Assembly (NCBI RefSeq): GCF_023276435.1
Contig: NZ_JALLPO010000053.1
Location: 1-53,624, forward strand
Length of the DNA stretch: 53,624 bases
Source: Sphaerisporangium perillae
Lineage (GTDB): Bacteria > Actinomycetota > Actinomycetes > Streptosporangiales > Streptosporangiaceae
Direction: 5' to 3'
Numbering within the stretch: the first letter of the stretch is position 1; the number at the start of each line of letters is the position of its first letter. The position numbers were made by a program, and so were the translations under genes. The notes below the pieces were generated by a model that was not told the origin of the DNA, made no database searches, and saw only the letters and a program-made list of their open reading frames with translations. Shown here in pieces: positions 4,671 to 49,101 of this stretch.

Positions 4671-5096
4671 GTGCGCGTCCTTTCACGAAAGGGAGAATGG
4701 GCGCCCGCACGGCTGGAATCGCCGGCGTACGCCGGCCGCGCCCAATGTGCACTGTTCCGATGCGCACCGCCGGATGGCCGCTTTCACGGCCCGGCTCGTT
4801 CCGTGCCCGTCCGGCGAGAAATCCGTCCACGAAATCTTCGCACCGGCCGCCGCCCGGAGTCTTCTCCGAGCGTGCTTACCAGCAGCCCGCGCGAGCTGCC
4901 GTGATACCGCCGGCAGGCAGCAACCGGGGAGATGCGGGAATGCGGCGGCGCGGCCACCATGAGGCTGGGGAAAGAAACGATTCCGTCGTCTTTAAATCTC
5001 GGCCGCCGGATCTCGGCGACACAGCGCCGAGCCGACGGCCGGCCCGCCGTTCTCCGTTTCCGCCACCGGCCGACCATCGTCTGGAGTGAGGGATAG
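4671..5096. other. Divergent intergenic region between two methyltransferase genes
   Basis: 426 nt without a gene. It carries one copy of the 16-bp cluster element at 4920-4935, placed 161 nt from the plus-strand start and 249 nt from the minus-strand start. The stretch 4975-5000 (AAAGAAACGATTCCGTCGTCTTTAAA region) is AT-richer than its surroundings and is the likeliest place for promoter elements; no clear -35/-10 pair is visible. Confidence 0.55.
4920..4935 (-). promoter_or_regulatory. 16-bp cluster element, copy 1
   Basis: On the minus strand it reads GCATCTCCCCGGTTGC, 13 of 16 matches to the copy at 20550. It lies between the divergent methyltransferase genes at 4670 (minus) and 5097 (plus). 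Reverse orientation relative to most copies, with the plus-strand start 161 nt away. Confidence 0.65.
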
Positions 5097-5927
5097 ATGA
5101 CCAGGGAATTGATCGACCCGGCCGATATCGGCACCCATTACGACGAGCGCTCCCCGATCGGCGACGAGCTCCGAAACGGCCAGCTGCACATGTGGTACTG
5201 GTACGACAACGAGGACGACGCCCCGTTGAAGGACGCCGTGCACCGCATCAGCCGCAAGGTGGCCGACACACTCGGCCTGCGTCCCGGTGAGCGGGTCCTG
5301 GACGCCGGATGCGGGCCGGGCGAGACGGCGGTGTTCCTCGCCAAGAACTACGGCGCCCGGGTCACCGGCATCACCGTCAGCTCCTTCGAGATCGACAAGG
5401 CGACCGAGCGCGCCCTGTCCAGCGGCGTGACCGACCGGGTGAGCTTCGAGTACGGCGACTACACCGACCTGGCCTTCCCCGACGGCTCCTTCGACGCCGT
5501 CCTGGCGCTGGAGTCGCTGCAGAACGCCCCCGACCTGGAGCAGGTGTTCAAGGAGCTGTTCAGGGTGCTGCGTCCCGGCGGCCGCATCTCCTTCTCCGAC
5601 TTCAGCCTAGAGTCGGCGGCCGAACCCGCGCGGGTGAAGAGGTTCATGAGCACGCTGAAGCTGCGGGAGCTGCCCACACTGGCCGAGTGGATCGCACGCG
5701 CGGAGCGGGCCGGTTTCGAGGTCGAGGAGTACACCCAGTGCGGCCCGAGGGTGTTCGGCAAGAAGAGCAAGTACATCAAGGCCGCGATGGACCACAGGGA
5801 CACGATCGCCGCGAAGTTCGGCGAGGAGGCCCTGGCGGAGTTCTCCCGCAGGCACCTGGGTTTCTTCGCGCCGAGGAAGGACCAGATCGGGTACGTGATC
5901 GTGTCCGCCCGCAAGCCGAACCGCTGA
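5097..5927 (+). CDS. Class I SAM-dependent methyltransferase
   Basis: 276 aa. ATG at 5097 follows GGAGTGAGGG. Motif I is VLDAGCGPGETAVFLA, followed by GARVTGITVSSFEIDKA, motif II/post II SFDAVLALESLQNAPD, and motif III FRVLRPGGRISFSDFSL. A lid region and the end FFAPRKDQIGYVIVSARKP resemble small-molecule O-/C-/N-methyltransferases of the UbiE/RebM-like group. It is monocistronic: a strong terminator hairpin follows the stop. It shares a regulatory region with a second methyltransferase, consistent with two methylation steps in the same pathway. The site of methylation cannot be told from sequence. Confidence 0.88.
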   Translation: MTRELIDPADIGTHYDERSPIGDELRNGQLHMWYWYDNEDDAPLKDAVHRISRKVADTLGLRPGERVLDAGCGPGETAVFLAKNYGARVTGITVSSFEIDKATERALSSGVTDRVSFEYGDYTDLAFPDGSFDAVLALESLQNAPDLEQVFKELFRVLRPGGRISFSDFSLESAAEPARVKRFMSTLKLRELPTLAEWIARAERAGFEVEEYTQCGPRVFGKKSKYIKAAMDHRDTIAAKFGEEALAEFSRRHLGFFAPRKDQIGYVIVSARKPNR

Positions 5928-5945
5928 CCGGCCCCCGTCCGGCCC

Positions 5946-5978
5946 CCGCACCACCGCACCCCGGGCGCGGTGGTGCGG
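5946..5978 (+). terminator. Rho-independent terminator of the methyltransferase gene
   Basis: Arms CCGCACCACCGC (5946-5957) and GCGGTGGTGCGG (5967-5978) pair perfectly around a 9-nt loop, followed by CTTTGT. It starts 18 nt past the stop codon. Confidence 0.8.
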
Positions 5979-6019
5979 CTTTGTCGTCGCCGTCGCGCGC
6001 AGAGCGGCCTTAGAGCAGA

Positions 6020-6057
6020 GCGGCCTGAGATCGGCCGTGCGGCCTGAGATCGGCCGT
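6020..6057. repeat. Two tandem 19-bp repeats
   Basis: GCGGCCTGAGATCGGCCGT occurs twice in direct contact (6020-6038, 6039-6057). Degenerate partial copies (AGAGCGGCCT) lie just upstream at 6001 and 6016. It is located between two convergent terminators. Confidence 0.8.
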
Positions 6058-6096
6058 CAAAAGAGCGGGGGCCGGCGAACCGGCCCGGGAAACGCT

Positions 6097-6138
6097 CTGC
6101 CGGCCATGTCCAGCGTCGTCGGTGGACATGGCCGGCAG
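6097..6138 (-). terminator. Terminator of the flavin monooxygenase gene
   Basis: Arms CTGCCGGCCATGTCC (6097-6111) and GGACATGGCCGGCAG (6124-6138) pair perfectly around a 12-nt loop, 22 nt downstream of the minus-strand stop at 6160. It forms a convergent terminator pair with 5946-5978. Confidence 0.75.
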
Positions 6139-6159: not shown

Positions 6160-7413
6160 TCAGGCGTGCGCGGCGTCGCCGACGCCGAAGCGGGCCTTGG
6201 CGAGCTCGCGCTTGGCGATCGTGGAGAGGAAGACGGCGAATCCGGCGTGGCTGTGGAACATGGACATGTCACGCCACACCCGCTCGATGCGCTGGCCCTG
6301 GCGGACCGCGCTGGAGCCCGCGGTGGGGAACAGGTAGTTCTCCACCGCGTGCCAGCAGAGGTCGACCACCTGGTGGCAGATCGCGGCGACCCGCATCTCC
6401 TGCTCCTTGGTGACCGCCGCCGGGCCGCGCGCGCAGGTCTCGGTCCACTGCCGGACGGCGTGCAGGACGGCCGCCTCGCCGGTGGCGATCATCCCGGCGG
6501 CCTGGCCGTACCAGAACTGGTAGTCGGGGTCCTCGGCGCGGGGCACGTTCGGCGGGAACATCGTGATGCGGGTGCGCATCAGCTCCTCGTAGGCGTCGAG
6601 GGCGCCGAGCGCCATGCCCACGGCGAGGATGGCGTCCTCGATGACCATGAAGCTGAGCTGGCCGCCGCCGTACTCCGGGTTGCCGTGCAGCGTGCGCCCG
6701 GGGGTGCCCTTGGAGACGTCGACCTGGCTGACGTGGGTGTCCAGGGTGAAGTGGCCGGGCACGAGCCCGTTCTCCATGGTGATGCTGTGCGATCCGCTGC
6801 CCTTGAGGCCGAGTTGCCCGCCCCAGTCGGAAAGGCGCCGCCACTGGCTGCGCGGGGCGACGAAGAGCATGGGCGCGGGCGGGCGCCCCTCGCCGGGGGA
6901 CACGAGGGTGTGGCCGATGAAGTGCGTCGCGTACGGCGAGCCCGAGCAGTAGTTCCAGGTGCCGTCGAGCAGCCAGTCGCCTTCGGCGGTGCGCTCGGCG
7001 GTGCCGCTCGGCGCGACCGTCGCGGGGCAGATGAAGTCGCCGCCGGCGAAGATCTCGGCCTGTGCCCGCTCGTCGAACAGCGAGGCGACGACCAGGGCGT
7101 GCGCGTGCCCCAGGCAGTACATCCAGCCGGTCGACGGGCAGCCCCGCGTGAGCGCCATCGTCACCCGCATGAAGGTGTCGATGCCGAACTCGTAGCCGCC
7201 GTAGCGCCGCGGGACGAGGATCCGGTAGAAGCCTGCCCGGAGGAACTCCTCGTGGGTGTCCTGCGCGTAGAAGGTGCGCTCCTCGGTCTCGGCCTGGCGC
7301 GCGACCAGCGTCGCCGCGATGGCCTCGGCCCTCGCGACGATCTCCGCCGGCGTGAGCGCGGGTTCGGGCGGGAGGACGACTCCGTACTCGGAAACATTCG
7401 TGGCTACTGCCAT
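6160..7413 (-). CDS. Acyl-CoA-dehydrogenase-fold flavin-dependent monooxygenase
   Basis: 417 aa, ATG at 7413 chosen because GGAGGG lies 10 nt upstream; an ATG 18 nt further up has no ribosome site. Fold segments: amino helical domain (ARAEAIAATLVARQAETEE, FYRILVPRRYGGYEFG), beta domain (TAEGDWLLDGTWNYCSGSPYATHFIGHTLV) and carboxy helical bundle. The catalytic glutamate of true acyl-CoA dehydrogenases is not evident, and W-NYCSG-S with the GCPSTGWMYCLGHAHAL segment resembles group D, two-component hydroxylases (HsaA/ActVA-ORF5-like) that use reduced FMN/FAD and O2 to hydroxylate aromatic or polyketide substrates. The flavin reductase at 36662-37201 could supply the reduced flavin. Divergent from an acyltransferase; two 16-bp elements lie between them. 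Confidence 0.82.
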   Translation of the reverse strand: MAVATNVSEYGVVLPPEPALTPAEIVARAEAIAATLVARQAETEERTFYAQDTHEEFLRAGFYRILVPRRYGGYEFGIDTFMRVTMALTRGCPSTGWMYCLGHAHALVVASLFDERAQAEIFAGGDFICPATVAPSGTAERTAEGDWLLDGTWNYCSGSPYATHFIGHTLVSPGEGRPPAPMLFVAPRSQWRRLSDWGGQLGLKGSGSHSITMENGLVPGHFTLDTHVSQVDVSKGTPGRTLHGNPEYGGGQLSFMVIEDAILAVGMALGALDAYEELMRTRITMFPPNVPRAEDPDYQFWYGQAAGMIATGEAAVLHAVRQWTETCARGPAAVTKEQEMRVAAICHQVVDLCWHAVENYLFPTAGSSAVRQGQRIERVWRDMSMFHSHAGFAVFLSTIAKRELAKARFGVGDAAHA

Positions 7414-7491
7414 TGCCGCGCAGCCCTCCATTTCGAATGGTCAGCGGAGAATCGGGCCATGTAGCCAGCGTCACGGCTGCCCGCCGAGCGG

Positions 7492-7507
7492 GCATCTCCT
7501 GGAATGC
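7492..7507 (+). promoter_or_regulatory. 16-bp cluster element, copy 2
   Basis: GCATCTCCTGGAATGC, 15 of 16 identical to the copy at 20550. It lies 78 nt upstream of the minus-strand monooxygenase start and 175 nt upstream of the plus-strand acyltransferase start. Confidence 0.75.
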
Positions 7508-7535: not shown

Positions 7536-7551
7536 GCATTTTGGAAAATGC
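7536..7551. promoter_or_regulatory. 16-bp cluster element, copy 3 (symmetrical variant)
   Basis: GCATTTTGGAAAATGC is a palindrome except for its two central bases and keeps the GCAT and ATGC ends. It is 44 nt downstream of copy 2 in the same divergent region. More divergent in the middle than the other copies, so less certain. Confidence 0.5.
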
Positions 7552-7682: not shown

Positions 7683-8918
7683 ATGGTGGAGTTATCGCAG
7701 ACCGTCGGTTCCCGTCCCCCAACCCTGCCGTCCCGGCTGCCGTCGCTGACCGGAATGCGGTTCATCTCCGCGGCGATGGTCTTCCTGACCCACGCGATCG
7801 GCGCGAGCCTGTTCGCCTCCGCGGCGTTCACGGGCGTGTACATCTCGGTCGTCGTCCAGGGCGGCTGGGCTGCGGTCTCCTACTTCTTCATCCTGAGCGG
7901 CTTCGTGCTGACCTACGCCGCGCGGTCCTCCGACACCGCGGCGACGTTCCTGCGGCGCCGGTTCCTGAAGATCTACCCGAACTACATCATCACGCTCGCC
8001 GCCGCGCTCGTCCTGGTGAGCTGGGTGGGCAAACAGGCCATCGACGGCGGGACGGCGCTCCTGCACGCTCTGCTGCTGCAGTCGTACGTGCCCGTCCTGG
8101 ACGTCAGGACGGCCTTCAACGCGCCGGCGTGGTCGCTGTCCTGCGAGGCGCTGTTCTACCTGCTCTTCCCGCTGATGGCCCGCTACATCGGCCGCATCAG
8201 GCCGGAGCGGCTGTGGGGGTATGCGAGCCTGACCGTGCTGGTCATCTTCGCCATGCCGTTCGTGGCCAAGCTGCTGCCGGCCCAGCCGCCGATCCCCGGC
8301 TTCGGCATGACCGAGCTGGAGATGTGGTTCGTCATGCAGTTCCCGCCGGTGCGGATGCTGGAGTTCGTCTTCGGCATGATCCTGGCCAGGATCGTCATGA
8401 CCGGCAGGCGGCTCCCCGTGGGGCTCGGCGGCGCGCTGGCGATCGGCATCGCCCTGTACGCCATCGCGCCGATGCTCCCGGTCAGCTTCGACGTCGTGGC
8501 CGTCTCGGTCATCCCGCTCGGCCTGATCATCGCCGCGGGCGCGGCCAATGACGCCGAGCGGCGGACGAGCCGGCTCGGCGGCCGCGTCATGGTGTGGCTC
8601 GGCGAGGTGTCCTACGCCTTCTACATGTGGCACTTCCTGGTCCTGATCTACGTCCCCCAGTGGTTCGGGTCCATGAAGGGCTGGAGCACTCCTGCCGGGT
8701 TCGCGATGCTGGCGGTGCTGTTCGGCATCACGCTGGTGCTGTCGTGGCTGCTGTACTCGCTGGTGGAACGCCCGATCATGCGGCGCTTCGCGTCCTCGGG
8801 CCGCGGCAGGGGCCCTGGGGTTCCGCTGCCGATGCCGCCCGCCTCCGCTTCGGACCTGCCCGAGCGGCTCCCGGCCGGCGACCCGGGCGCCCCGCCGGCC
8901 CGGTCCACCACCGCCTAG
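7683..8918 (+). CDS. Membrane acyltransferase, acyltransferase-3 family (paralogue 1)
   Basis: 411 aa, about ten membrane segments. It opens with RLPSLTGMRFISAAMVFLTHAIGA, with the conserved His of the acyltransferase-3 (OafA/YrhL-like) family in the first membrane helix, then SYFFILSGFVLTYA, RRRFLKIYPNY, and APAWSLSCEALFYLLFPL. The end FYMWHFLVLIYVP and LVERPIMRRFASS is typical. These integral membrane enzymes move acyl groups onto sugars or macrolides. ATG at 7683 follows GAAGGTG. Codon 4 is TTA, so translation may need bldA tRNA. Close paralogue of 20740-21996, and the last 50 nt before the two start codons are also alike. The acylated position and acyl donor are unknown. Confidence 0.87.
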   Translation: MVELSQTVGSRPPTLPSRLPSLTGMRFISAAMVFLTHAIGASLFASAAFTGVYISVVVQGGWAAVSYFFILSGFVLTYAARSSDTAATFLRRRFLKIYPNYIITLAAALVLVSWVGKQAIDGGTALLHALLLQSYVPVLDVRTAFNAPAWSLSCEALFYLLFPLMARYIGRIRPERLWGYASLTVLVIFAMPFVAKLLPAQPPIPGFGMTELEMWFVMQFPPVRMLEFVFGMILARIVMTGRRLPVGLGGALAIGIALYAIAPMLPVSFDVVAVSVIPLGLIIAAGAANDAERRTSRLGGRVMVWLGEVSYAFYMWHFLVLIYVPQWFGSMKGWSTPAGFAMLAVLFGITLVLSWLLYSLVERPIMRRFASSGRGRGPGVPLPMPPASASDLPERLPAGDPGAPPARSTTA

Positions 8919-9167: not shown

Positions 9168-9497
9168 GTGACGATGGAGACGGTATGGTCGGCGCTGGTC
9201 GACCCGCACAGGCGGGCGCTGCTCGACCTCCTGCGGGAAGGCCCCCGCGCGGTCGGTGAACTGGCCGGCGAGCTGGGGCTCAGCCAGCCCATGACGTCCA
9301 AGCACCTGCGGGTGCTGCGCGAGGCCGACCTCGTACGGGTCCGCACGCAGGCGCAGCGCCGCATCTACACCATCGCCCCCGACCGCATGGCCGAGCTGGA
9401 CGCGTGGCTGGCGCCCTACCGGCGGCTGTGGAACGACCGGCTCGACGCGCTCGGGCGTCACCTCGACGACGACGACGACGATCGCAAGGAGACCTGA
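9168..9497 (+). CDS. ArsR-family transcriptional repressor
   Basis: 109 aa with a winged-helix domain: VWSALVDPHRRALLDLLREGPRAVGELAGELGLSQPMTSKHLRVLREADLV, then the wing RVRTQAQRRIYTIA. No metal-binding cysteine pair is present, as in the non-metal ArsR proteins that are paired with SRPBCC (AHSA1-like) genes. The tail is an acidic run (LDDDDDDRKET). GTG at 9168 chosen from the promoter position; ATG at 9174 is the alternative. Its stop overlaps the next start by one base (TGATG), so the two are co-translated. It probably represses its own promoter. Confidence 0.85.
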   Translation: MTMETVWSALVDPHRRALLDLLREGPRAVGELAGELGLSQPMTSKHLRVLREADLVRVRTQAQRRIYTIAPDRMAELDAWLAPYRRLWNDRLDALGRHLDDDDDDRKET

Positions 9498-15177: not shown

Positions 15178-16761
15178 CTATTCGGGGAGCCTGATGGACA
15201 GCGCGTGGCGGAAGACGTTCCGCGGGTCGTAGCGCTTCTTGACCTGCTGGAGGCGGGGGTAGTTGTCCTTGTAGTACAGGGTGTGCCAGGGGACGCCGGA
15301 GGTGTTCAGCTCCGGGTCGGCCAGGTCGGCGTCGGGGTAGTTGATGTACGCGCCGTCGCTGAGCTCGTCCGGTCCCGGGACGCCGCCGCTGTGGGCGTAG
15401 ATGTCGCGGAACAGGTCCCTGATCAGGCCCACGTTCTGCTCGTCTTCGGCCTCGCTCGCCCAGGCGCCGAGGTAGGCGGCCTTGAGGATGGAGTCACGCT
15501 GCGCGGTGGCCGTGGCGTCGGGGGCGACGGTGTTGACCTGGCCGCCGTAGCCGACGAGCAGCACCTGGGCCGGGTTGTACACCTCGCCGGTGAAGTGCTT
15601 GTAGACGGCCGCGATCTGCGCGTCGCTGTAGCCCTTGCGCAGGTACGCCGCCTTGATCTTGAACCGGCGGACCCCCGGGTTGCCGGGGTCGCCGTAGCCG
15701 GGGTAGGACGCCGCGTACAGCCAGGGCTGGACCTCCTGGAACCGCATCGCCGGCTCCACGCCGACCCCGGCCGCGACCTCGTCGAGGAAGGCGGTCATCA
15801 GGGCCTCGGCGCCGGGCAGCCCGTCGTCGATGAGCGCGCCGACCATCAGCCCCGGCTGCGTCGAATTGTGCGTGCCGTGGAAGTACGGGAAGAGGTCGGC
15901 CTGCGGCGTGCCGGCGGTGCTGTTGTTCTCGCACCAGGTGCCGAAGTTGCGCAGCAGCGTGGTGAAGGCCTCCTCGGTCATCCCCTCCCACGACCAGATG
16001 GCGAGGCCGCTGCGGGTGGCGGCCGGCGCCTTGGGCAGCAGCTCGGCCGGGTTGGAGGAGACCGCGTCCGGGCTGCGCATCCAGTAGCGCGTCACCACGC
16101 CGAAGTTGCCCCCGCCGCCGCCGGTGTGCGCCCACCACAGGTCGCGGTGCGGGTCGCCGGGCTCGCGGGTGGCCACGACGGCGCGCGCCCGCCCGTCCTC
16201 GCCGACGACCACGACCTCCACGGCGTACAGGTAGTCGACGACCGCGCCGAGGCTGCGCGACAGCGGGCCGAAGCCGCCGCCGGCGAAGTGCCCGCCCACG
16301 CCCACCTCGGGGCACATGCCGGCGGGGACGGTCACGCCCCATCCCTTGAACAGCACGCGGAAGACGTGACCCAGGGTCGCGCCGGCCTCGATGGCGAAGG
16401 CTCGGCGGCCGCTGTCGTAGTAGACGGCGGTCATCTCCGAGATGTCCAGCAGGACCTTCACCTCGGCGTTGGCGACGAAGTTCTCCAGGCCGTGGCCGCC
16501 GCTGCGCACGGCGATGCGCTTCCCGGCCGCCACCGCCTCGTCGACCGCGGCCACGACGTGCTCGGTCCTGGTCACCACGCGCACGTAGTCGGGGCTGCCG
16601 ACGAACCGGTGGTTGGTGCCGCGCAGCATGCTGTCGTAGCGCGGGTCGTCACGGGTGATGGTCGACGGCCCGAACTCGGGGATGTACCGCTCATCGGCCG
16701 GGCCGGAGGGAACGGCGGCGACGGCTCCGTTGGGATGGCCGTGGCTCTGTACATCGGTCAT
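15178..16761 (-). CDS. Bicovalent FAD oxidase, berberine-bridge-enzyme type
   Basis: 527 aa, ATG 16761 behind GGAGG. Both flavin attachment sites are visible: RSGGHG (His90, 8-alpha link) and GMCPEVGVGGH (Cys150, 6-S link), so the FAD should be held by two bonds as in AknOx and related secondary-metabolite oxidases. Later come LWWAHTGGGGGNFGVVTRYW, GGQVNTV and the BBE carboxy end YYKDNYPRLQQVKKRYDPRNVFRHALSIRLP. No signal peptide. Such enzymes carry out high-potential oxidations of sugars or polycyclic substrates. First gene of a minus-strand run with P450, RibD-like and LLM genes; two 16-bp elements lie upstream in the region shared with the binding-protein-like gene. Confidence 0.9.
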   Translation of the reverse strand: MTDVQSHGHPNGAVAAVPSGPADERYIPEFGPSTITRDDPRYDSMLRGTNHRFVGSPDYVRVVTRTEHVVAAVDEAVAAGKRIAVRSGGHGLENFVANAEVKVLLDISEMTAVYYDSGRRAFAIEAGATLGHVFRVLFKGWGVTVPAGMCPEVGVGGHFAGGGFGPLSRSLGAVVDYLYAVEVVVVGEDGRARAVVATREPGDPHRDLWWAHTGGGGGNFGVVTRYWMRSPDAVSSNPAELLPKAPAATRSGLAIWSWEGMTEEAFTTLLRNFGTWCENNSTAGTPQADLFPYFHGTHNSTQPGLMVGALIDDGLPGAEALMTAFLDEVAAGVGVEPAMRFQEVQPWLYAASYPGYGDPGNPGVRRFKIKAAYLRKGYSDAQIAAVYKHFTGEVYNPAQVLLVGYGGQVNTVAPDATATAQRDSILKAAYLGAWASEAEDEQNVGLIRDLFRDIYAHSGGVPGPDELSDGAYINYPDADLADPELNTSGVPWHTLYYKDNYPRLQQVKKRYDPRNVFRHALSIRLPE

Positions 16762-16862
16762 GTTCGTTCCTCCACTGGCGGCCGGGCGGCGTCCACGCCA
16801 CCGCCGCGCCGGTCATGGTCGGCTCGGCTCCTCCCAAGCGTGCCGTCGCGGAGAATCCGGCT

Positions 16863-16878
16863 GCATCTTTGGATGTGC
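16863..16878 (+). promoter_or_regulatory. 16-bp cluster element, copy 4
   Basis: GCATCTTTGGATGTGC. 101 nt upstream of the minus-strand BBE oxidase start and 178 nt upstream of the plus-strand gene at 17057. Confidence 0.6.
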
Positions 16879-16897: not shown

Positions 16898-16913
16898 GCA
16901 ACGGCGGAGATGC
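16898..16913 (-). promoter_or_regulatory. 16-bp cluster element, copy 5
   Basis: On the minus strand GCATCTCCGCCGTTGC, 12 of 16 matches to the copy at 20550. It is 35 nt from copy 4 and inverted relative to it, and 143 nt upstream of the plus-strand start at 17057. Confidence 0.6.
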
Positions 16914-17056
16914 GCAGAGGTGGGCGGTCTCGCAGCATGGGCATCGGGAAACCGATGTCTCCACCTCTCGCCGGCCTGGTCGCCACGCGTGAAGCGACCG
17001 GGCCGCTCAGGCTGCGCGGGCTTACCCGCCGTGATTCCCGACGAAAGGATGAGCAC

Positions 17057-20471: not shown

Positions 20472-20549
20472 CGTCAACTCCTTCGTCGTCGCGCGGGTGA
20501 GTGACGTCGACTCACACCGCCACATCGTTCTCCCGCGCCTTCGCGCGCC

Positions 20550-20565
20550 GCATCTCCTGGATTGC
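20550..20565 (+). promoter_or_regulatory. 16-bp cluster element, copy 6 (closest to consensus)
   Basis: GCATCTCCTGGATTGC. 78 nt upstream of the minus-strand DUF2855 start and 174 nt upstream of the plus-strand acyltransferase start, nearly the same geometry as copy 2. A weaker second site, GCAATACGGAATATGT, is at 20603-20618. Confidence 0.75.
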
Positions 20566-20739
20566 GCGGCATTGGAGCGCGCGGGGGGAAACAGGCAACT
20601 CCGCAATACGGAATATGTGGGCCGGACCGCGGGACGCCACGCTTGTCGTACCGGCTCGTCCATGGTGGCCGCCCGACCGCCGTACGGAGCCATCGCCTGA
20701 TCGAGTCTCAGTGAGCCCGAACATCGAAAGGCACGTCAC

Positions 20740-34208: not shown

Positions 34209-34982
34209 ATGGAAAGCGCAATCGAACAAGCCGTCCTGCGCGTCGTCAGGAGCATGCACGAAAACCTGGGCGAGCAGCTGACCATCAATGACATGGCTCG
34301 CACGGCGATGTTCAGCAAGTTCCACTTCTCCCGCGTGTTCCAGCGGGTCACCGGCTTGTCGCCCGGCCGCTTCCTGTCCGCGGTGCGGATCCAGGAGGCC
34401 AAGAGGCTCCTCGCCTCCACCTCGTTGACCGTCACGGACATCAGCCACAGAGTGGGCTATTCCAGTGTCGGAACCTTCAGTTCTCGTTTCACCAGCAGCG
34501 TGGGACTTTCTCCGACGAAATACCGTCAGCTCAAGAGCGTCGCGCCGCGGGCGCCGATCGATGGATTCGACGAGCCGCCCGTCATGGGTCCGGTGACGAC
34601 GACGATCCGGGGTGACATCTTCTCCCCGCTCGAGGACCAGCCCATCTTCGCCGGCCTTTTTCCCGACCGGATCCTCGAGGGCCGTCCCGTGAGGTACACG
34701 ATCCTGCGCAAGCCGGGTCCGTACGTGCTGGAGGACGTGCCGCAAGGTGAGTGGCACCTGATGGCCCAGGCCGTCGCCCCGGGCCGCGAGGACGCGGTGG
34801 ATCATGCCCCGGGCGGCGACGAGGCCCTGTGCATCGGCCGCCACGGCCCGATCACCGTACGGCCCGGCACGCACACGAGAATCGCCGACCTTTCCCTGCA
34901 CCCGATGCGCCCCCTCGACCCCCCGGTGTTGCTCGCCCTGCGCGACCTGTTACCCGTCAACGTCCCGCAGCTCATCCACTGA
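34209..34982 (+). CDS. AraC-family transcriptional regulator with amino-terminal HTH and TTA codon
   Basis: 257 aa, ATG 34209 behind GGGAGGAG. The DNA-binding domain is at the amino end (about 5-105): LTINDMARTAMFSKFHFSRVFQRVTGLSPGRFLSAVRIQEAKRLLASTSLTVTDISHRVGYSSVGTFSSRFTSSVGLSPTKYR, with both helix-turn-helix units complete. The carboxy half (about 120-257) is a beta-rich domain of unknown ligand (VRYTILRKPGPYVLEDVPQGEWHLMAQAV). Codon 248 is TTA (34950-34952), so its translation in a sporulating actinomycete would depend on the bldA leucyl-tRNA. It is the only cluster-type regulator in the window and is itself preceded by the 16-bp element, which makes it a candidate pathway activator, though not shown to bind that element. 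Confidence 0.85.
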   Translation: MESAIEQAVLRVVRSMHENLGEQLTINDMARTAMFSKFHFSRVFQRVTGLSPGRFLSAVRIQEAKRLLASTSLTVTDISHRVGYSSVGTFSSRFTSSVGLSPTKYRQLKSVAPRAPIDGFDEPPVMGPVTTTIRGDIFSPLEDQPIFAGLFPDRILEGRPVRYTILRKPGPYVLEDVPQGEWHLMAQAVAPGREDAVDHAPGGDEALCIGRHGPITVRPGTHTRIADLSLHPMRPLDPPVLLALRDLLPVNVPQLIH

Positions 34983-37667: not shown

Positions 37668-40600
37668 CTAGGACCGCCCTTCCGTGAGGACCGCGAACAC
37701 GACCGGGCCGGGGGCGTCCCGGAGGGCCGTGACGAGCGTGGAGACCCGCACGCCGTCCGAGGAGAGGACGGCCCACGCGTCCCGCCGCGCGGGGTTGAGG
37801 GTGAGGGACGCGCTCGGCTGGTGACCGGCGCTTCGCAGGGCCCGGACGGCGGCCAGCACCCGCGTCGCCGCGGTGTCGAGGCCTTCGCCCGTCTCGGTGG
37901 CGATCCGCTCGGCGAGCGGCGCGTGCGTGCCGAGCAGGTCGGCCCACTCCGCGGCGGTCCGCTCGGCGACCGGCTCGACGCCGGAGCCGACCGGGCCCGC
38001 GGCGACGACGCACAGGGTGACCCCGGCCCCGTGGGACGCCGAGACCGTACGGCCGCCGTCGATCTCCAGCCGCCCTTCGGCGTCCTGCCGGACCTCGACC
38101 GGGTGACCGGCGGCGCGCCCGGCGGCCACGGCCGTGCGGGCCTCCCGCTCGGCCGCGGTGCCGGAGCCGCCCGGGGCAAAGGGCTCGACGGCGACGGCCA
38201 CCCGGGCGCCGGTCAGGTCCTCGAGCGTGCGCTCCAGGTATGACCCGAGCAGCGGGGCGACCCACGGGCCCCTGCCGTCCTTCTTGCGCACCGCCTGCAG
38301 GCGGAGGCCTTCCCACCGCTCGACGACCTCGCCGGCGGCGGTGCGCACGGCGATGTCGTAGATGTAGGTGTCGCCCTCGTGGAACCGCTCGGTGGCGCAA
38401 TAGCGCAGCACCCCCGCGTCGGCGAGCGCCGCGCCGCCGGGGTACACCCGCTCGATCCCGACCGGCAGCAGTGTGGCGTCCGGCACGCAGACCTGGTTGC
38501 CGTGCATGAGCGCGTCGCGCATGCCCGGGTCGCCGAGCAGCAGCTCGCCGGACAGGAAGCCGGCGAACCAGTCCCTGGCGTCCACGGCGGCCACGTCGGC
38601 GTCGACGTGCCGCGCGGCGGCCCTGTGGTAGCGGCGCAGGCGGTGGAACCGCCCGCCCTGGAACAGCACGTCGCCGTACATCTCGCTCGGCGGGTCCAGC
38701 GGGACGGCCGGCAGGCCCTCGCCGATCTGGTCCGGCGGCCCGGCGGGGACGCCGTCCTCGGTGTAGCGCAGCCGCGCGCGGAAGTGCTCCACCTCGAACC
38801 CGGTCTCGGCGCTGCGGATGGCCACCTCCACCGTGTCGTCGTCGGTGACGGCCGCGGCGACGCGGATGGTGGTGCTGCCCTCCGGCGGCACGATGATCGG
38901 CCGCAGGAACTCGGCCTCCTCGATGACCGGCGCCGCGTCCCGCCCGGTGGCCGCGGCGGCCACCTGGGCCATGGCCTCCATGCCGAACACCGCCGGGAAC
39001 AGCAGGTTGCCGTCCAGGAGGTGGTCGGCGAGGTAGAGGTCGGTGCCGGCGTTCATCTCGGCCTCGGCGACGAGCTCGACGCCGTGGTAGTGGATCAGCG
39101 GCTTGTCGACGAACCGCAGCAGCGGCAGCGCCGGCAGGTCGTAGCGGACGGTGTCGATGCCCTCGGTACGCCCGCTGATCACGACAACGGTGGGCGCGTC
39201 GGGGTCGGCGACGAGCCGCCGCATGATCCCCACCCCCTGCTCGGGGGAGATCGGCGTGATGCCCTTGCGAGCGAGGCCCTCGACGACCGAGAGCCGCTCG
39301 CCCATGCCGACGTCGGACCAGACCGACCATTCCATGCAGATGGCGCGGCATCCGGGGTTGGCCTCGCCCACCTCGCAGGTGAGGCTCGCCAGCCAGTCGT
39401 TGGCGGTGGAGTAGTGCGCCTCGCCGTGCAGGCCGGCGCGGCCGATGATGCTGCCGAAGGTCACCAGCAGGCGCAGGCGACCGGGTTCGACGGCGTCGAG
39501 CACGTTGCGCAGGCCGTCGATCTTCGGAGCGAACGTGCGCCGGAACGCGGCCATGTCCAGGCCGGTCAGCCCGCTCGGCTCGTTGCGGCCGGCGCCGTGC
39601 AGCACCGCCGTGACCGGCCCGAGGGCCGCCTCCAGCTCGGCGACCCCGGCGCGCACCTGCGCGGGGTCGGTGACGTCGGCCCGCGCGTAGTGGACCGTGA
39701 CGCCGGAGCCGGCCATCCTGCGCAGGTTGTCGGCGAGCTCGGCGTCGGCGGCGGGGTCGGAGCGGCCGAGGACGGCGAGCTTCGCCCCGCTGTCGGCGGC
39801 CACCGCGAGCGCGCACTCGGCGGTGATGCCCTTGCCTCCGCCGGTCACCAGCAGCACGTCGGTCCCGTCCAGCGGCTGGACGGTACGCGCCGGCCGTACG
39901 GGCATGGCCCGCAGCGTCGGCACCCGCCGCACACCCTCGGCGTCGTAGAACGCCTCGGCGAACTTGGTGGTCGAGGCCACCTCCGCCACCACCCAGGCGA
40001 CCGCCTCGGGCGCCGCCGGGACGTGGACGATGGTGGTGCGCAGGTGCGGGGCCTCCAGCTGCAGCGTCTTGGCCAGGCCGGCGGCGCCGCGGTCGTGCTG
40101 CACCACGACGAACCGGGTGCCCGCCGCGCCGGCGATGGCCGACTTCGCGCCGAGCAGCGCCTGCTCCAGGTGCTCTTCCGCGCAGTCCGGCGGCAGGACC
40201 ACCAGGACGCCGGAACCGACCTTCCCGCGTTCGAGCGCCTCGCGCAGTGGCCCGGCGAGCGGGGAGTCCCCGGCCGCGTACAGCTGCCATTGGCCGTTCT
40301 CCTGCGGCGAGGTGCGGGCCGGCAGGGGCAGCGCGTCGAGGTCGACGGCGAACGGCCGTGCCCAGGACGCCGCTCCGGCGACCACGGACAGCGGAGCCGC
40401 CTCGGCGGACCCGGCGTTCGCGGCCAGCGCGTCGAGCGCCTCGGACAGCTCGCGCAGGCTCGCCGTGGCGAGGTTGGTCGGCGCCTGGGACGCGGGCACG
40501 CCCAGCCGCTGGGTGGCCTGGTCGATGATGTGCATCACCGTGACCGAGCTGAGGTGCAGCTCGTCCAGCGGCCTGCTGTCCGCGCCGACCATCTCCAGCG

Positions 40601-43457
40601 GCAGCTCGGCGCGCTCGGCGGCGAGGCGGCGCAGCAGGTCGATGCTGGACTCGCCCGCCTCCCCCACCGGCTGCGGCGCCTCGGCGGCGACGGGCGCCGC
40701 GGCCTGGGCGGACCGCTGGACGGTGCCGCGGATCTGCACCTGCGGCGCCTGCTCCACCGGGCTCTGGAAGAAGGTGAACTCGGCGCCGACCTCAAGCGGC
40801 CGGACGAGCCGGCCGTGGAACAGCTCGTCGTGGACGATCGGCACGCCGGCGACGTAGGCCGCGCCGGCCACCCTGAGCAGGCCGGCCAGCGACTCGTCGT
40901 CGCTGTCCAGCGCGACGGCGGGCACGTCGGTCACCGACGCGGCGAGCCCGCTGAGCACCCGGCCGGGGCCGACCTCGACGAGCAGGTCCATGTCCTTGGC
41001 CGCCGCCTCGACGGCCTGGGTGAACAGGACGGGCGCGGTGATCTGGGTCCGCAGCAGCGCGCGGACGTCGGTGTCCGGCGTCAGCGTCTCCCCGGTCACC
41101 GTGGAGACGATCGGCCGCGCGACCGGGCCGAAGTCCTCCTCGGCCAGGTAGGCGTCGAGGGCCTCGGCCGCCGGCGCCACCAGCGGCGAGTGGAACGCGT
41201 GGGACACCGCGAGCTGCGTCCACTTGAGCCCCGCGTCGGCGGCCTTGCGGCCGAACGCCTGGATCGCGTCGACGGGACCGGCGACGACCGTCTGGTCGGG
41301 CCCGTTGTACCCGGCGATGACGACGGGCAGGTCGCCGGCCAGCTCGGTCACCGTGTCCGGCGTCGCGCGGACGCCGGCCATGGTGCCCGACGCGCTGTGC
41401 TCGGTCATGGCCTTGCCCCGGAAGCCCGCCACGCGCAGCAGGGCCTCCTCGTCCAGCGCGCCGGCCCAGTGCAGCGCCGAGATCTCGCCCAGGCTGTGGC
41501 CGACCGCGACGTCCGCCTCCACACCGATCATGGACAGGGCGCGGAGCCCGGCCATCGACCCGGTGACGATGCGCGGCTGGGCGACGGCGGTCGCCACCAT
41601 GTCGCCGCTGGTGGGCAGGTCCGCCTGCACGTAGAGCTCATCGACCTCGGGGAAGCGCCGGCGCAGCGCGCCGCCGCTGGTTCCCCGGCCCGATCCCTGA
41701 CCAGGAAACAGGAAGCCGACCCGGCCCGGCCCGTCCGCGTGGCCGTAGAACGCGCGGCCGTCCGGGGCGAACAGCCGCGTCTCGCCGGCGTCCAGGGCCT
41801 CCAGCACGCCCCGCAGCCGCCGCTCGGCGTCCTCGGGCGAGGAGGCCACCACGGCGGCGCGGTACGGCAGGTCGCGCAGGTCGCGCTGCAACGTGGCGGC
41901 GAGATCGGCGAGCTGGGCGTACGACACCTTGATCACGAAGTCGGCCAGCTCGGCGATCCGCTCGCGCAGCGCCTGCGGGGACCCCGCGTCGACGAGCAGC
42001 AGCTCGGCGTCCTGGAGCGAGGAGGCCAGCGTCTTGGTGCGCGTCGAGAGCGGCGCGCGCCGGCGTGGGCCGGTCTTCTCCAGCACGACGTGGGTGTTGA
42101 TGCCGCCGAACCCCATCGCCGTGATGCCGGCGCGCACCGGTGCGCCGGCCGGCCACGGCTCGGCCTTGCGCAGCGCGCGCAGCGTGGCCGAGTCGCGGGC
42201 CAGGACGTCGTGCGGTTCGACGCAGCCGATGGCCGGCGGCAGCACCTGCTCGTGCACCGCCATCGCGGCCTTGATCAGGCCGGCGACCCCGGCGGCGGCC
42301 TTGGCGTGCCCGATCATCCCCTTGATGGAGGTGACCGCCGCGCGCGTGGCCGAGGAGTCGGCCTCGGCTCTGGCCTCCGACAGCGCCGTCAGCTCGGTGG
42401 CGTCGCCGACCGCGGTGCCGGTGCCGTGGCCTTCGAACAGCTCCACGGTCTCGATGCCGAAACCGGCCCGGTCGTAGGCGCGCTTGAGCGCGAGCTTGTA
42501 GCCGCTGACCTCCGGCCGGGTCATGCCGCCCTTGCCGTCGGAGGAGATGCCCCAGCCGGCGATGGTGGCGTACACGCGGCGGCGGGCCTTGACGGCCTCG
42601 TCCTCGCGCATCAGCACGATCATGCCGCAGCCCTCGCCCGGCCAGAAGCCGTTGGAGTGCCGGTCGTACAGCCGGAAGTCGCCCTTGGCCAGGGCGCCGG
42701 TCTTGGCGAAGCCGATGATCTCGAACGGGTCGATGGACAGGTCGACGCCGCCCGCGAGCGCGACGTCGATGTCCCCGTCCAGGAGCGCCTTGCACGCCGT
42801 CGTGACCGACAGCAGCGAGGAGGAGCACGCCCCGTCGACGGTGTAGCCGCCGCCGTTGAGGTCGAAATAGTTGCAGATGCGCCCGGCGATCGTGTTGGAC
42901 AGGCCACCCGCGAGGGTGTCCTCGTCGATCTCAGGGAATGGGCTCTTGTAGGTGGCCTCCAAGTCGGCGAGGAACGTGGCCAGCCGGTCGTCGTCCCAGC
43001 CCTGGTCCTGCAGCACCGCGGCGACCGTGCGGCGCACGTACGGCCAGCGCAGGCGCATCACGTTGGCGCGGGTGAACTCGCCGGTCAGGGTGTTGCCGAC
43101 GACCACGCCGGTGCGCTCCCGGGGCAGGCCCTCCGCCGCGGGGAAACCCGCGTCCGCCAGCGCCAGGGCCGCCATGTCGAGGGCGAGCCAGTGCGTCAGG
43201 TCGGTCGAGCGGTACGTGCTGCCGCCGATCTTGTATCCGACGCGGTCGAACTCGTAGCCCTCGATGACTCCGGCCGTGCGCGCGTAGAAGGTGTCCGGGT
43301 GCGCCGGGTCGGCGTTCCAGTAGTCCTCCAGTCGCATGCGCACGTCGGGCAGCCTGCGGAAGGCGCGGCGACCGGCGATGGCGTTCTCCCAGAGCTCTCT
43401 GGGCGACGTGGCGTCCGGATATCGGCACGCCATGCCGACGATCGCGATCCTGGTCAT
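37668..43457 (-). CDS. pksE: Enediyne iterative type I polyketide synthase
   Basis: 1929 aa. Domain order KS-AT-ACP-KR-DH-PPTase, unique to enediyne PKSs. KS about 1-460 with Cys211 in VDGACSSSLL, His344 in EGHGTGT and His384 in IGHAKA. AT about 575-870 with GQGSG and Ser655 in VGHSLGE. ACP with LHLSS, Ser970/971. KR about 1195-1400 with TGGGKGI and Tyr1349 in HYSTAND. DH with DHLLDGNLLFPAVFGMEAMAQ, His1479. The end (about 1690-1929) corresponds to the built-in PPTase but has GSGVEP (Gly1826 where Asp is expected) and TRVLAAVRALRSAG (Leu1868, Arg1872, Ser1876 where Trp, Glu and Lys are expected), so it may be inactive. Start overlaps the unbU stop (ATGA). Confidence 0.97.
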   Translation of the reverse strand: MTRIAIVGMACRYPDATSPRELWENAIAGRRAFRRLPDVRMRLEDYWNADPAHPDTFYARTAGVIEGYEFDRVGYKIGGSTYRSTDLTHWLALDMAALALADAGFPAAEGLPRERTGVVVGNTLTGEFTRANVMRLRWPYVRRTVAAVLQDQGWDDDRLATFLADLEATYKSPFPEIDEDTLAGGLSNTIAGRICNYFDLNGGGYTVDGACSSSLLSVTTACKALLDGDIDVALAGGVDLSIDPFEIIGFAKTGALAKGDFRLYDRHSNGFWPGEGCGMIVLMREDEAVKARRRVYATIAGWGISSDGKGGMTRPEVSGYKLALKRAYDRAGFGIETVELFEGHGTGTAVGDATELTALSEARAEADSSATRAAVTSIKGMIGHAKAAAGVAGLIKAAMAVHEQVLPPAIGCVEPHDVLARDSATLRALRKAEPWPAGAPVRAGITAMGFGGINTHVVLEKTGPRRRAPLSTRTKTLASSLQDAELLLVDAGSPQALRERIAELADFVIKVSYAQLADLAATLQRDLRDLPYRAAVVASSPEDAERRLRGVLEALDAGETRLFAPDGRAFYGHADGPGRVGFLFPGQGSGRGTSGGALRRRFPEVDELYVQADLPTSGDMVATAVAQPRIVTGSMAGLRALSMIGVEADVAVGHSLGEISALHWAGALDEEALLRVAGFRGKAMTEHSASGTMAGVRATPDTVTELAGDLPVVIAGYNGPDQTVVAGPVDAIQAFGRKAADAGLKWTQLAVSHAFHSPLVAPAAEALDAYLAEEDFGPVARPIVSTVTGETLTPDTDVRALLRTQITAPVLFTQAVEAAAKDMDLLVEVGPGRVLSGLAASVTDVPAVALDSDDESLAGLLRVAGAAYVAGVPIVHDELFHGRLVRPLEVGAEFTFFQSPVEQAPQVQIRGTVQRSAQAAAPVAAEAPQPVGEAGESSIDLLRRLAAERAELPLEMVGADSRPLDELHLSSVTVMHIIDQATQRLGVPASQAPTNLATASLRELSEALDALAANAGSAEAAPLSVVAGAASWARPFAVDLDALPLPARTSPQENGQWQLYAAGDSPLAGPLREALERGKVGSGVLVVLPPDCAEEHLEQALLGAKSAIAGAAGTRFVVVQHDRGAAGLAKTLQLEAPHLRTTIVHVPAAPEAVAWVVAEVASTTKFAEAFYDAEGVRRVPTLRAMPVRPARTVQPLDGTDVLLVTGGGKGITAECALAVAADSGAKLAVLGRSDPAADAELADNLRRMAGSGVTVHYARADVTDPAQVRAGVAELEAALGPVTAVLHGAGRNEPSGLTGLDMAAFRRTFAPKIDGLRNVLDAVEPGRLRLLVTFGSIIGRAGLHGEAHYSTANDWLASLTCEVGEANPGCRAICMEWSVWSDVGMGERLSVVEGLARKGITPISPEQGVGIMRRLVADPDAPTVVVISGRTEGIDTVRYDLPALPLLRFVDKPLIHYHGVELVAEAEMNAGTDLYLADHLLDGNLLFPAVFGMEAMAQVAAAATGRDAAPVIEEAEFLRPIIVPPEGSTTIRVAAAVTDDDTVEVAIRSAETGFEVEHFRARLRYTEDGVPAGPPDQIGEGLPAVPLDPPSEMYGDVLFQGGRFHRLRRYHRAAARHVDADVAAVDARDWFAGFLSGELLLGDPGMRDALMHGNQVCVPDATLLPVGIERVYPGGAALADAGVLRYCATERFHEGDTYIYDIAVRTAAGEVVERWEGLRLQAVRKKDGRGPWVAPLLGSYLERTLEDLTGARVAVAVEPFAPGGSGTAAEREARTAVAAGRAAGHPVEVRQDAEGRLEIDGGRTVSASHGAGVTLCVVAAGPVGSGVEPVAERTAAEWADLLGTHAPLAERIATETGEGLDTAATRVLAAVRALRSAGHQPSASLTLNPARRDAWAVLSSDGVRVSTLVTALRDAPGPVVFAVLTEGRS

Positions 43458-47562: not shown

Positions 47563-47604
47563 CCACCGCCCGCGCGATCGTCTTTCGGCCCCGTGACGGC
47601 GCCG

Positions 47605-48600
47605 TCAGCCGGGAATGCGGTCCCCGGAGGCGGCGAAATGCGTCCGGACCGCGCGCCGCCACAGCTCGTACGCCGGGAGCGCGCCGGACCCGCCGGCCGC
47701 CACGGCGGTGGCGTCGGCGAGCGCGACCGCGCCGTCGATGGACAGGTCGGCCAGCGCCCCGGTGGCCACCTCCGTGTGCTCGGGCACGAAGCCCGAGAAG
47801 CTCCGCGCCTTGGCGGCGAACACCACGCCCTGCGCCAGTTCGGGCCGGTGCTCGCCGGCCGCCTCGCGCAGCGCGGCCAGCCCTTCGGCGGTGGAGCCGC
47901 CGGCGAAGGTGGCGGCCAGGCCCACGCCGCTCCACAGGTCGGCCTGCCGGTGCGAGGCGAAGCCGCCCACCCGCGCGGCGATGCCCGGCACGTGCCCGCC
48001 GTGGATGAACCACAGCGCCCGGCCGATGCCCTGGTCGACCGCCCGCAGGAAGTAGCCGGGAGAGCCCTCCCACGCGTAGGGCGACGGGACCCGCTGCTCG
48101 TCGACCCAGCGACGGGTGTCGAAGTAGGCGCGGTCGAACCCGTACCCGTCCACCGCCAGCCAGCTCATGGTGGGGTAGTACGCCGAGCCGGTCAGGTCGG
48201 GCATGACCTTCTTCCACAGCGGCCGGGGCAGGCGCGCCATGGCGAAACCGATGCCGATATAGGTGAGGAAGATGTGCGGCTGCCCGGGCCCGAGCAGCAG
48301 GTCGCGGGTGCGGTGGCCGCGCCCGCCCGCCATCGCGTCGAGCACGGTGAACGCCATCGTCGCGCCCTCATAGGCGAATCCGCGCAATTCCTGCTCGACC
48401 ATGCTCAGGCGGCGCTCGACCTCCCACTGGTCGCGCGCGTCGATTCCCCACTCGAATCCACAGATCACCGCCTGCGGAATCGCTTCCAGCCGCCGGGTCG
48501 CCTCCGAAGGGATGGCCGGAAAGCCGCGCACGCCGAAAGTCACATCCGTCAGCGATGGAGTCAGCATGAGCCTGCGCAGTGAACCCAACAGGGTGGACAT
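47605..48600 (-). CDS. unbL: UnbL (DUF1702), copy B, first gene of the core operon
   Basis: 331 aa, ATG 48600 behind GAGGAG with 5-nt spacing. Same signature blocks as copy A: ELRGFAYEGATMAFTVLDA, TYIGIGFAMARLPRPLWKK, LAVDGYGFDRAYFDTRRWV, RAVDQGIGRALWFIHGGHV, ADLWSGVGLAATFAGG, LAQGVVFAAKAR. Differences in the amino region and the carboxy end suggest specialised roles and not a fresh duplication. Enediyne cassettes typically carry one unbL, so this extra gene is unusual. A 16-bp cluster element lies 85 nt upstream. Confidence 0.92.
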   Translation of the reverse strand: MSTLLGSLRRLMLTPSLTDVTFGVRGFPAIPSEATRRLEAIPQAVICGFEWGIDARDQWEVERRLSMVEQELRGFAYEGATMAFTVLDAMAGGRGHRTRDLLLGPGQPHIFLTYIGIGFAMARLPRPLWKKVMPDLTGSAYYPTMSWLAVDGYGFDRAYFDTRRWVDEQRVPSPYAWEGSPGYFLRAVDQGIGRALWFIHGGHVPGIAARVGGFASHRQADLWSGVGLAATFAGGSTAEGLAALREAAGEHRPELAQGVVFAAKARSFSGFVPEHTEVATGALADLSIDGAVALADATAVAAGGSGALPAYELWRRAVRTHFAASGDRIPG

Positions 48601-48601
48601 A

Positions 48602-48812
48602 ATGCTCCTCGTCTTCGCCATCAGCCGATGACGGTTCCACACACCAGCTGGACCATTTCATGGTGATATGCCGGATAGTTACGGCACATCTCCCTGATTG
48701 CGAAGCTCAGTGATGATCGGTAATGGTCCGTCTTACCGGCGCGGACGATCAGCCCTCGACATGAATGAAGCCCCCGCGCCGGCGGGGGCTCGAGCTCGCG
48801 GGCGGGGAGCCG
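48602..48812. promoter_or_regulatory. Promoter region of the core enediyne operon
   Basis: 211 nt between unbL copy B and accE. It contains element copy 8 (48686-48701). The inverted sequences GGACCATT (48651-48658) and AATGGTCC (48722-48729) flank the element at similar distances and could be further operator halves. AT-rich for this genome, fitting a main promoter. Confidence 0.5.
48686..48701 (+). promoter_or_regulatory. 16-bp cluster element, copy 8
   Basis: ACATCTCCCTGATTGC, 13 of 16 matches to the copy at 20550. 85 nt upstream of the start of the unbL-unbL-unbV-unbU-pksE operon. Confidence 0.65.
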
Positions 48813-49025
48813 TCAGCCGGCCCAGCCGCTGACGCGCCAGGCCGCCGGGTTGGAACTGGGCGCGGACGGCTTGCGCATCGTGCGGGAGCCGTCCAGCCAG
48901 GCGGACGCGTCGGCCTCCGCCTGCGCCGCCGAGGAGGCGCGGGCGCTCAGGACGGCGATCAGCGCGGCCAGTTCCTCAGGAGTGGGATTGCCGCGTACGA
49001 CCCTCAGATACAACTCGTCCGCCAC
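48813..49025 (-). CDS. accE: Acyl-CoA carboxylase epsilon subunit
   Basis: 70 aa, GTG 49025 behind GGAGGG with 5-nt spacing; upstream GTG codons have no proper ribosome site. ELYLRVVRGNPTPEELAALIAVLSAR is the defining epsilon-subunit motif, followed by a linker with WLDGSRTMRKPSAPSSNPAAWRVSGW. The small epsilon subunit binds and activates the carboxyltransferase (beta) of actinobacterial acetyl/propionyl-CoA carboxylases. Such genes normally follow a beta-subunit gene; here it stands alone. As the PKS uses many malonyl-CoA units, an extra epsilon subunit could raise malonyl-CoA supply. A 16-bp element is 60 nt upstream. Confidence 0.88.
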   Translation of the reverse strand: MADELYLRVVRGNPTPEELAALIAVLSARASSAAQAEADASAWLDGSRTMRKPSAPSSNPAAWRVSGWAG

Positions 49026-49085
49026 GTCGCCCCTCCAGATCGGCACCACCCGTTCTCCGAGCGTCACCTCCGGGCATCGGACGGA

Positions 49086-49101
49086 GCAACTTCTCGAATG
49101 C
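49086..49101 (+). promoter_or_regulatory. 16-bp cluster element, copy 9
   Basis: GCAACTTCTCGAATGC, 13 of 16 matches to copy 2. It lies 60 nt upstream of accE (minus strand) and 157 nt upstream of the AhpD-like gene at 49259 (plus strand). A left-half-only match, GCATTTTGCTGACTCC, is at 49162. Confidence 0.6.

Follow-up and report, generated by a model that had tools for sequence, protein, structure and literature searches.

The 53,624-nt window analyzed here, which is the entire contig C70 of the Sphaerisporangium perillae genome (genome label G000), carries enediyne biosynthetic genes among which a 16-bp DNA element recurs. We are very confident that this element is a real, cluster-wide promoter element. 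Read with transcription, it has the form GCAWtnnnRRAGATGC and is followed, after 19-20 bp, by a -10-like nACgaTg. An AraC-family protein encoded in the window probably reads it as an activator, as judged from sequence. With somewhat less assurance, we also favor the view that one AraC-type activator and a portable promoter code of ~43 bp, consisting of the two-box site and a phased -10, form a conserved master switch for the arms of the nine-membered enediyne pathway in several actinobacterial orders, arms on other contigs included, and that the code alone marks pathway membership. Antitumour antibodies carry enediynes as payloads. Enediyne clusters encode several regulators, and which genes these control directly is, to our knowledge, hardly known.

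A first-pass annotation of this DNA had listed nine copies of the element, all of which are present. The conserved letters that it named (C2, A3, T6, T14, G15 and C16 in 9/9; G1, T4 and C5 in 8/9) are also correct by inspection. The motif had, however, been written against transcription: the copies it called plus are real but face minus-strand genes, and the strand given for each copy below is the direction of transcription. Six of the nine lie within three mismatches of the consensus GCATCTYCTGGATTGC; dinucleotide shuffles lead to an expectation of 0.50, and none of 100 shuffles reached six. The copies at 7536, 16863 and 16898 have six, five and four mismatches, respectively. Since the consensus alone left these three weak copies doubtful, testing was moved to other species.

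The following genes of the window are needed below:
31623 to 33278, minus strand: E9, encoding a GMC oxidoreductase; it overlaps the end of E8.
33275 to 33805, minus strand: DUF5987 gene (E8; PF19449, 307.6 bits), the anchor for locating related clusters.
34209 to 34982, plus strand: AraC-family gene (PF12833/PF00165; 257 aa), the proposed element reader, with a DNA-binding domain of two helix-turn-helix (HTH) units at about residues 1-110 and a beta-sandwich at about 128-235.
37668 to 43457, minus strand: pksE, the enediyne polyketide synthase gene (ketosynthase, acyltransferase, ketoreductase and dehydratase domains), within the run headed by the copy at 48686.

A protein search with E8 in contigs from one genome per species recovered 79 related loci, from Sphaerisporangium, Streptosporangium, Nonomuraea, Actinomadura, Streptomyces, Amycolatopsis, Saccharothrix, Salinispora, Catellatospora, Actinoplanes and other genera. 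The pattern GCA-N5-RRAGRTGY was found upstream of E8 in the window and in 50/79 loci. Its distance to the E8 start is mostly 113-160 nt, and its orientation, as searched, is always the same; a matrix detected an E8-upstream site in 56/79 loci. Alignment of 37 non-redundant E8 sites revealed a second block, nAC[GC]ATG, at a fixed offset, starting 20-21 nt after the site, in which the A and T of a TAnnnT -10 are preserved. On the reading of this block as the -10, the 16-bp site spans about -48 to -33. Clade-specific variants of the site were also seen, with GGTGC in Salinispora (L050, L056, L061, L062) and GACGC in some Pseudonocardiaceae (L064, L078, L085).

The matrix was trained on 37 non-redundant E8-upstream sites from other species, with the window's own site left out; these sites had been collected by regular expression and include a few doubtful members (e.g., L036 and L064; lowest matrix score 5.9). 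Scanning related clusters with a matrix, as the first-pass annotation had proposed, yielded 101 sites in the 79 loci (56 upstream of E8 and 45 elsewhere), where 15 column-permuted matrices averaged 0.33; none of the 45 lay inside a gene that had been annotated through its match to window proteins. The recurrence of the element in homologous clusters was borne out in many genera. From all fetched stretches, 106 non-redundant sites outside the training set were then picked by the 16-bp part (plus flank) alone, ignoring the -10. With genes outside Pfam called by a simple purpose-built codon-composition caller, 105 of these 106 sites fell outside called genes, and for 94 a called gene begins no more than 450 nt downstream, in the orientation of the site. 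For 59% of the 106 the best -10 was at the expected offset or at the next smaller one, and no other of the 29 offsets accounted for more than 6%.

The sites stand before the first genes of runs. A codirectional site within 350 nt was present at 57/82 orthologues of E8, 7/10 of the solute-binding-protein gene (SBP), 17/48 of E2 and 3/6 of the acyl-CoA dehydrogenase-like gene (ACAD), as well as at MDMPI (6/59), E3 (3/44) and mem187 (3/21); the remaining rows of the orthologue table are small. No such site was found at operon-internal genes, namely P450 (0/65), PksE (0/39), E5 (0/40), E4 (0/41) and CMD (0/74). The earlier placement of the element before the DUF5987-GMC operon is upheld by these counts, but the AraC gene, which had been included with it, is not an evident target (a codirectional site within 350 nt in 2/68 orthologues). 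The proposal that the element serves a cluster-wide regulator is supported, with the refinement that the fixed spacing of a promoter element suggests an activator site more than a plain operator.

Within the window, the seven best matches to the E8-trained matrix were 33913, 20550, 4920, 48686, 16898, 7492 and 16863, all among the original nine, although part of the score at 33913 is built in, as close orthologues of this site belong to the training set. Ranks 8 to 10 were 27949, 7536 and 20603. Eight matches in the window reached A>=14 and a total of >=15; with 200 column permutations the average was 0.03 and the maximum 1. Two new copies, 20603 (plus) and 27949 (minus), extend the original list, and in the three divergent intergenic pairs (7492/7536, 16863/16898 and 20550/20603) the copies face both flanking genes. 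The copies, with their scores A and B, are as follows:
4920 to 4935, plus strand: element GCAACCGGGGAGATGC, upstream of a methyltransferase gene (5097-5927); -10-like CACCAT at 4955-4960, 19-bp spacer; A=19.9, B=8.0.
7492 to 7507, minus strand: element GCATTCCAGGAGATGC, upstream of an acyl-CoA dehydrogenase-like gene (6160-7413); -10-like GACGCT at 7467-7472; A=20.8, B=2.5.
7536 to 7551, plus strand: element GCATTTTGGAAAATGC, divergent partner of 7492, facing an acyltransferase gene (7755-8918); -10 poor; A=17.8, B=0.3.
16863 to 16878, minus strand: element GCACATCCAAAGATGC, upstream of a BBE-type oxidase gene (15178-16761); -10-like CACGCT at 16837-16842; A=20.9, B=0.9.
16898 to 16913, plus strand: element GCAACGGCGGAGATGC, upstream of a solute-binding-protein gene (17057-18403); -10-like CAGCAT at 16933-16938; A=21.6, B=4.0.
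20550 to 20565, minus strand: element GCAATCCAGGAGATGC, upstream of a DUF2855 gene (19395 to about 20477); -10-like AACGAT at 20524-20529; A=20.1, B=11.5.
20603 to 20618, plus strand: new copy GCAATACGGAATATGT, divergent partner of 20550, facing an acyltransferase gene (20815-21996); -10 poor; A=14.7, B=0.1.
27949 to 27964, minus strand: new copy GCATTTTGAAAGAAGT, 540-630 nt upstream of an MFS gene (25740-27410); -10-like GACAAT at 27924-27929; A=12.1, B=7.9.
33913 to 33928, minus strand: element GCAACTCAGAAGATGC, heading DUF5987 (E8)-GMC (E9); -10-like AACGAT at 33887-33892; A=33.5, B=13.0.
48686 to 48701, minus strand: element GCAATCAGGGAGATGT, heading the pksE-containing minus-strand run; -10-like CACCAT at 48660-48665; A=17.9, B=8.2.
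49086 to 49101, minus strand: weak copy GCATTCGAGAAGTTGC, upstream of an accE-like open reading frame (48813-49067); -10-like GACGCT at 49060-49065; A=7.3, B=0.3.

Most copies recur at the same place in other genomes. Sites similar to 4920 lie upstream of the methyltransferase orthologues in G001 and G129, and G129 and G177 carry counterparts of 7492 and sites similar to 16863. The copy at 7536 was taken as facing plus because it is near-palindromic and its counterparts in G129 and G177 read GCAATCTGGAAAATGC towards the acyltransferase gene; none of three acyltransferase orthologues in the first orthologue set has a 7536-type site. The copy at 16898 is matched in G129 and G177 in addition to the SBP orthologues counted above. 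The copy at 20550, a zero-mismatch match to the pattern, has counterparts in G001, G129 and G177, and its partner at 20603 has an identical 16-mer at the same place in G177 and was not reported for G129 at the threshold applied. Sites similar to 27949 occur in L019 (the genome of which is G129), L020 and G177. The run headed by 48686 extends from a DUF1702 gene (start about 48588-48642) through a P450 gene (end 35250), and this copy has counterparts in G129, G210 and G079, in addition to 17/48 orthologues with a site. The copy at 49086 is probably a genuine element as well: of four other accE orthologues in the fetched loci, three are preceded by a site with the same GAAGTTG core (scores 11.0, 7.4 and 4.9), and the fourth has only another, low-scoring site (4.5). 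The true start codon of the accE-like frame may be further in, and its name comes from the earlier annotation, not from a profile search.

The concentration of the element on enediyne genes extends to the source genome as a whole (9.3 Mb), which was scanned with a pattern combining site and -10; its final letters, ACSMTG, were chosen after the -10 boxes of the window were known. All six matches with <=1 mismatch fall on enediyne stretches (three on C70, two on C53 and one on C38). An equal density of good matches across the genome, which would have spoken against the element, is thus not seen at this stringency, but only 3/9 matches at two mismatches lie in the C70, C53 and C38 stretches, and those at three mismatches lie mostly elsewhere; weak matches alone therefore mean little. 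Beyond the window, six more sites were recognized, four on C53 and two on C38. C53 starts with a partial HAD-type (P-type ATPase-like) gene. In G129, the C53 genes are followed without a break by the gene order seen at the left end of the window (window 1-1414; G000:C53:1-1106, L118), and because this gene order joins the two contigs, reversed C53 is taken to precede C70. Genes on C53 include one of the aromatic amino acid lyase type (aminomutase-like), nonribosomal peptide synthetase-type genes and an HpaB-type hydroxylase gene, as in beta-tyrosine pathways. C38 holds NDP-sugar genes (nucleotidyl transferase, UDP-glucose dehydrogenase, 2,3-dehydratase, aminotransferase and methyltransferases), with a divergent element pair between the UDP-glucose dehydrogenase and NDP-hexose 2,3-dehydratase genes (G000:C38:32374-32471; L119 12375-12472). 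In G210 and G079, homologues of these sugar genes share a stretch with the enediyne core, and elements are present there too. The sugar genes on C38 seem to be part of the regulon.

The candidate reader of the element is encoded within the regulon locus and has the two helix-turn-helix units of the AraC fold. The AlphaFold model of the protein has a mean predicted local distance difference test (pLDDT) score of 83.5, and the AdpA-DNA and MarA-DNA complexes are among its best structural matches. The mean majority-residue frequency over 39 of these AraC proteins was 0.94 and 0.91 in the recognition helices and 0.64 in the C-terminal domain. The C-terminal beta-sandwich (residues 128-235) gave weak structural matches only, transthyretin-like domains among them. 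The AraC gene lies inside the fetched stretch in 50/79 loci, three of these with <44% identity. At the level of whole genomes, a homologue at E<=1e-50 was found in 45 of 49 (48 of the 79 locus genomes plus the source), and the other four had matches of 1e-35 to 1e-44. The next AraC match in the source genome is HTH only, at 66 bits. Streptomyces griseus NBRC 13350 is among the strains for which a homologue is listed (P0160).

Co-occurrence of the element and the AraC gene was surveyed in 250 genomes of the family and 297 Streptomycetaceae genomes, using the element pattern with the stricter ACSATG. With <=1 mismatch, the family yielded 229 matches, in 66 genomes, compared with 7 for the backward pattern; Streptomycetaceae yielded 51 compared with 5. 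The element was present in 49/53 AraC-positive and 17/197 other genomes of the family, and in 16/18 AraC-positive and 12/279 other Streptomycetaceae. Among the 64 DUF5987-positive genomes of the family, at least two elements were found in 45/49 with AraC and 2/15 without. In the two AraC-positive Streptomycetaceae that lack a pattern match, the matrix located the E8 site, with a 19-bp spacer. A DUF1702 search served to mark genomes of enediyne type; the counts do not draw on it.

Other arrangements of AraC homologues were observed in these genomes. In stretches L217-L223, from DUF5987-positive genomes that lack the main AraC, a second AraC type (34-38% identity) stands beside DUF1702 genes, with a lone element nearby in 4/7 (L219, L220, L222 and L223). 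In G417 (L250-L251), two distant AraC homologues, separated by about 24 kb, flank an enediyne-type cassette that has no DUF5987 match, and no element was found there; AraC pairs of this kind occur in several Streptomycetaceae. G156 (L209-L210) has two main-type AraC copies, the second of which (68%) is on another contig with beta-amino-acid-arm homologues and its own elements.

Collectively, these data are best read as class II-type activation of a cluster-wide regulon by the window's AraC protein, a regulator of the SgcR2 kind. The two boxes of the site, GCAW at positions 0-3 and RRAGATGC at positions 8-15, lie about one helical turn apart, as in the asymmetric two-box sites of AraC/XylS-type proteins, and the extended conservation is one-sided; we infer that they are the two AraC half boxes. 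Overlap with the -35 region, fixed orientation and a 19-20-bp spacer (in the 59% of the 106 sites noted above) correspond to class II promoters, with start points that are predicted. In the mechanism that we propose, the cluster-encoded AraC/XylS-type activator (34209-34982, SgcR2-like) would bind the element, its two helix-turn-helix units reading the GCAW and RRAGATGC boxes. The bound site, at about -48 to -33, would replace the -35 box, and the activator would recruit RNA polymerase to the weak -10 (nACgaTg) 19-20 bp downstream. Enediyne core, amino-acid arm, deoxysugar and tailoring genes would thereby be switched on together. Binding, activation, start points, the assignment of boxes to helices and the sigma factor are all predictions of this model.

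Several observations weigh against this reading. Twelve of the 106 sites have no gene start in the expected direction (seven have one in the other direction only and five have none), and the first orthologue set showed no site at AT3a (0/3), AT3b (0/3), BBE (0/5) or MFS (0/16). No clean covariation of the recognition helices with the GGTGC and GACGC variants was apparent by eye. For AraC, the survey applied cut-offs of E<=1e-70 (family) and bits>=209 (Streptomycetaceae) that were fixed after the lists had been viewed. The p-values of the three comparisons (p=2e-32, p=4e-17 and p=2e-8, in the order given above) are too small and only indicative, because the genomes are related and the sets partly overlap the training genomes; some surveyed genomes also supplied training sites (G129 is the genome of L019, G177 of L029 and G230 of L021). 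A regulator lost jointly with AraC would give the same co-occurrence. A pattern match occurs in 8/176 genomes that have neither AraC nor DUF5987. Conversely, four AraC-positive family genomes (G118, G273, G068 and G251) lack DUF5987. The AraC homologue of G118 (L208; 58% identity) has no element, and no enediyne gene was found in the surrounding 20 kb. G273 has no convincing element, G068 has one pattern match, on another contig, and in G251 the pattern found none and the matrix two. Finally, the site is partly palindromic (GCAW-N8-WTGC), and a dimer of another family could read it.

Such a reader, for example a StrR-like SgcR1 or a TetR- or ArsR-family protein, with AraC merely co-travelling, is the alternative that survives best, and we consider it improbable. 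C-1027 has SgcR1, SgcR2 and SgcR3, according to the accessible portion of PMC2657911, and an ArsR gene also lies in the window, at 9174-9497. However, when reciprocal-best-hit groups were formed across 15 clusters (49 groups present in at least 4), AraC homologues were found in 15/15 and were the sole regulator recognized in all; no other regulator was recognized among groups in at least 7/15. The next were a TetR-like group (6/15) and an HTH group that is StrR-like by eye (4/15), neither of them in the cluster stretches of the source genome. Homologues of the putative StrR-like HTH protein (E<=1e-5) occur in 4/15 cluster regions and in none of the C53, C70 and C38 stretches, and the protein itself gave weak HTH matches only in Pfam and none in NCBIfam. 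In DUF5987-positive genomes, moreover, the multi-copy element is mostly missing where AraC is missing, in the survey counts above. A StrR, TetR or ArsR reader was set aside on the comparison of cluster groups.

Two other readings of the element as a regulatory site were weighed and dropped. A repressor operator placed over the -35 region would suit the expected polymerase footprint, but a repressor would need no 19-20-bp phasing to the -10, and proteins of the SgcR2, UcmR7 and TnmR7 type are described as positive in the accessible text of PMC8210685 and PMC9464397; we regard this as quite unlikely. Slightly less likely still is a dedicated extracytoplasmic function (ECF) sigma promoter, with AAGATGC as -35 and GACGATG as -10, which would account for the fixed spacing and orientation. 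The -35 motifs known for ECF promoters are shorter than the 16-bp two-box element, the -10 retains the A and T of TAnnnT, and no sigma-factor group was recognized by eye among the 49 groups, whose members were partly profile scanned. Chance resemblance or a dispersed repeat, to which the 4-6 consensus mismatches of 3/9 copies and the mostly off-cluster three-mismatch matches might point, is contradicted by the shuffles, permuted matrices, backward patterns and cross-genome results and was set aside as having almost no likelihood.

A promoter code common to clusters of many genera offers a direct, testable link from an SgcR2/TnmR7-like regulator to its target genes, and it predicts flanking and unlinked pathway genes, which in this genome are the beta-amino-acid genes of C53 and the C38 sugar genes. 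For tests of binding and transcription, the element also provides sites and point controls.

The proposed system was compared with known activators. Like SARP (Streptomyces antibiotic regulatory protein) and StrR regulators, the window's AraC would be a pathway-specific activator acting on several promoters of a cluster. SARP sites are heptamer direct repeats 8 bp before the -10, and StrR sites are long GTTCGA-type palindromes; the enediyne element matches neither. AdpA, the global Streptomyces regulator of the AraC family, acts genome-wide on a loose site, whereas the element is concentrated in one cluster. The class II AraC activators MarA, SoxS, Rob and RamA recognize different boxes and lack the extra C-terminal beta-sandwich of about 110 residues. 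No description of the element was found in the open-access literature, with subscription work, including the SgcR2 study (Chen, Yin et al. 2010), mostly outside the search; within the literature covered, the site, regulon and spread appear new, and AraC-type activation of a biosynthetic cluster is of an already known kind. The regulator that the first-pass annotation had called undescribed accordingly divides: its site seems undescribed, but regulators of its kind are described genetically as SgcR2, UcmR7 and TnmR7. The accessible parts of PMC2657911, PMC8210685 and PMC9464397 present these, as a group, as AraC-family positive regulators and contain no binding site for them. None of the 120 matches listed in each of two homologue listings is labelled SgcR2. 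UcmR7 homologues are said to be conserved among several enediyne clusters (PMC8210685 and PMC9464397, as far as accessible). The window's protein shares with these three its family and its cluster-encoded position. In addition, the sgcR1-sgcR2 gene order reported for the C-1027 cluster (PMC2657911, accessible part) is echoed in 4/15 clusters (G010, G029, G539 and G578), where the AraC gene lies directly downstream, on the same strand, of the putative StrR-like HTH gene.

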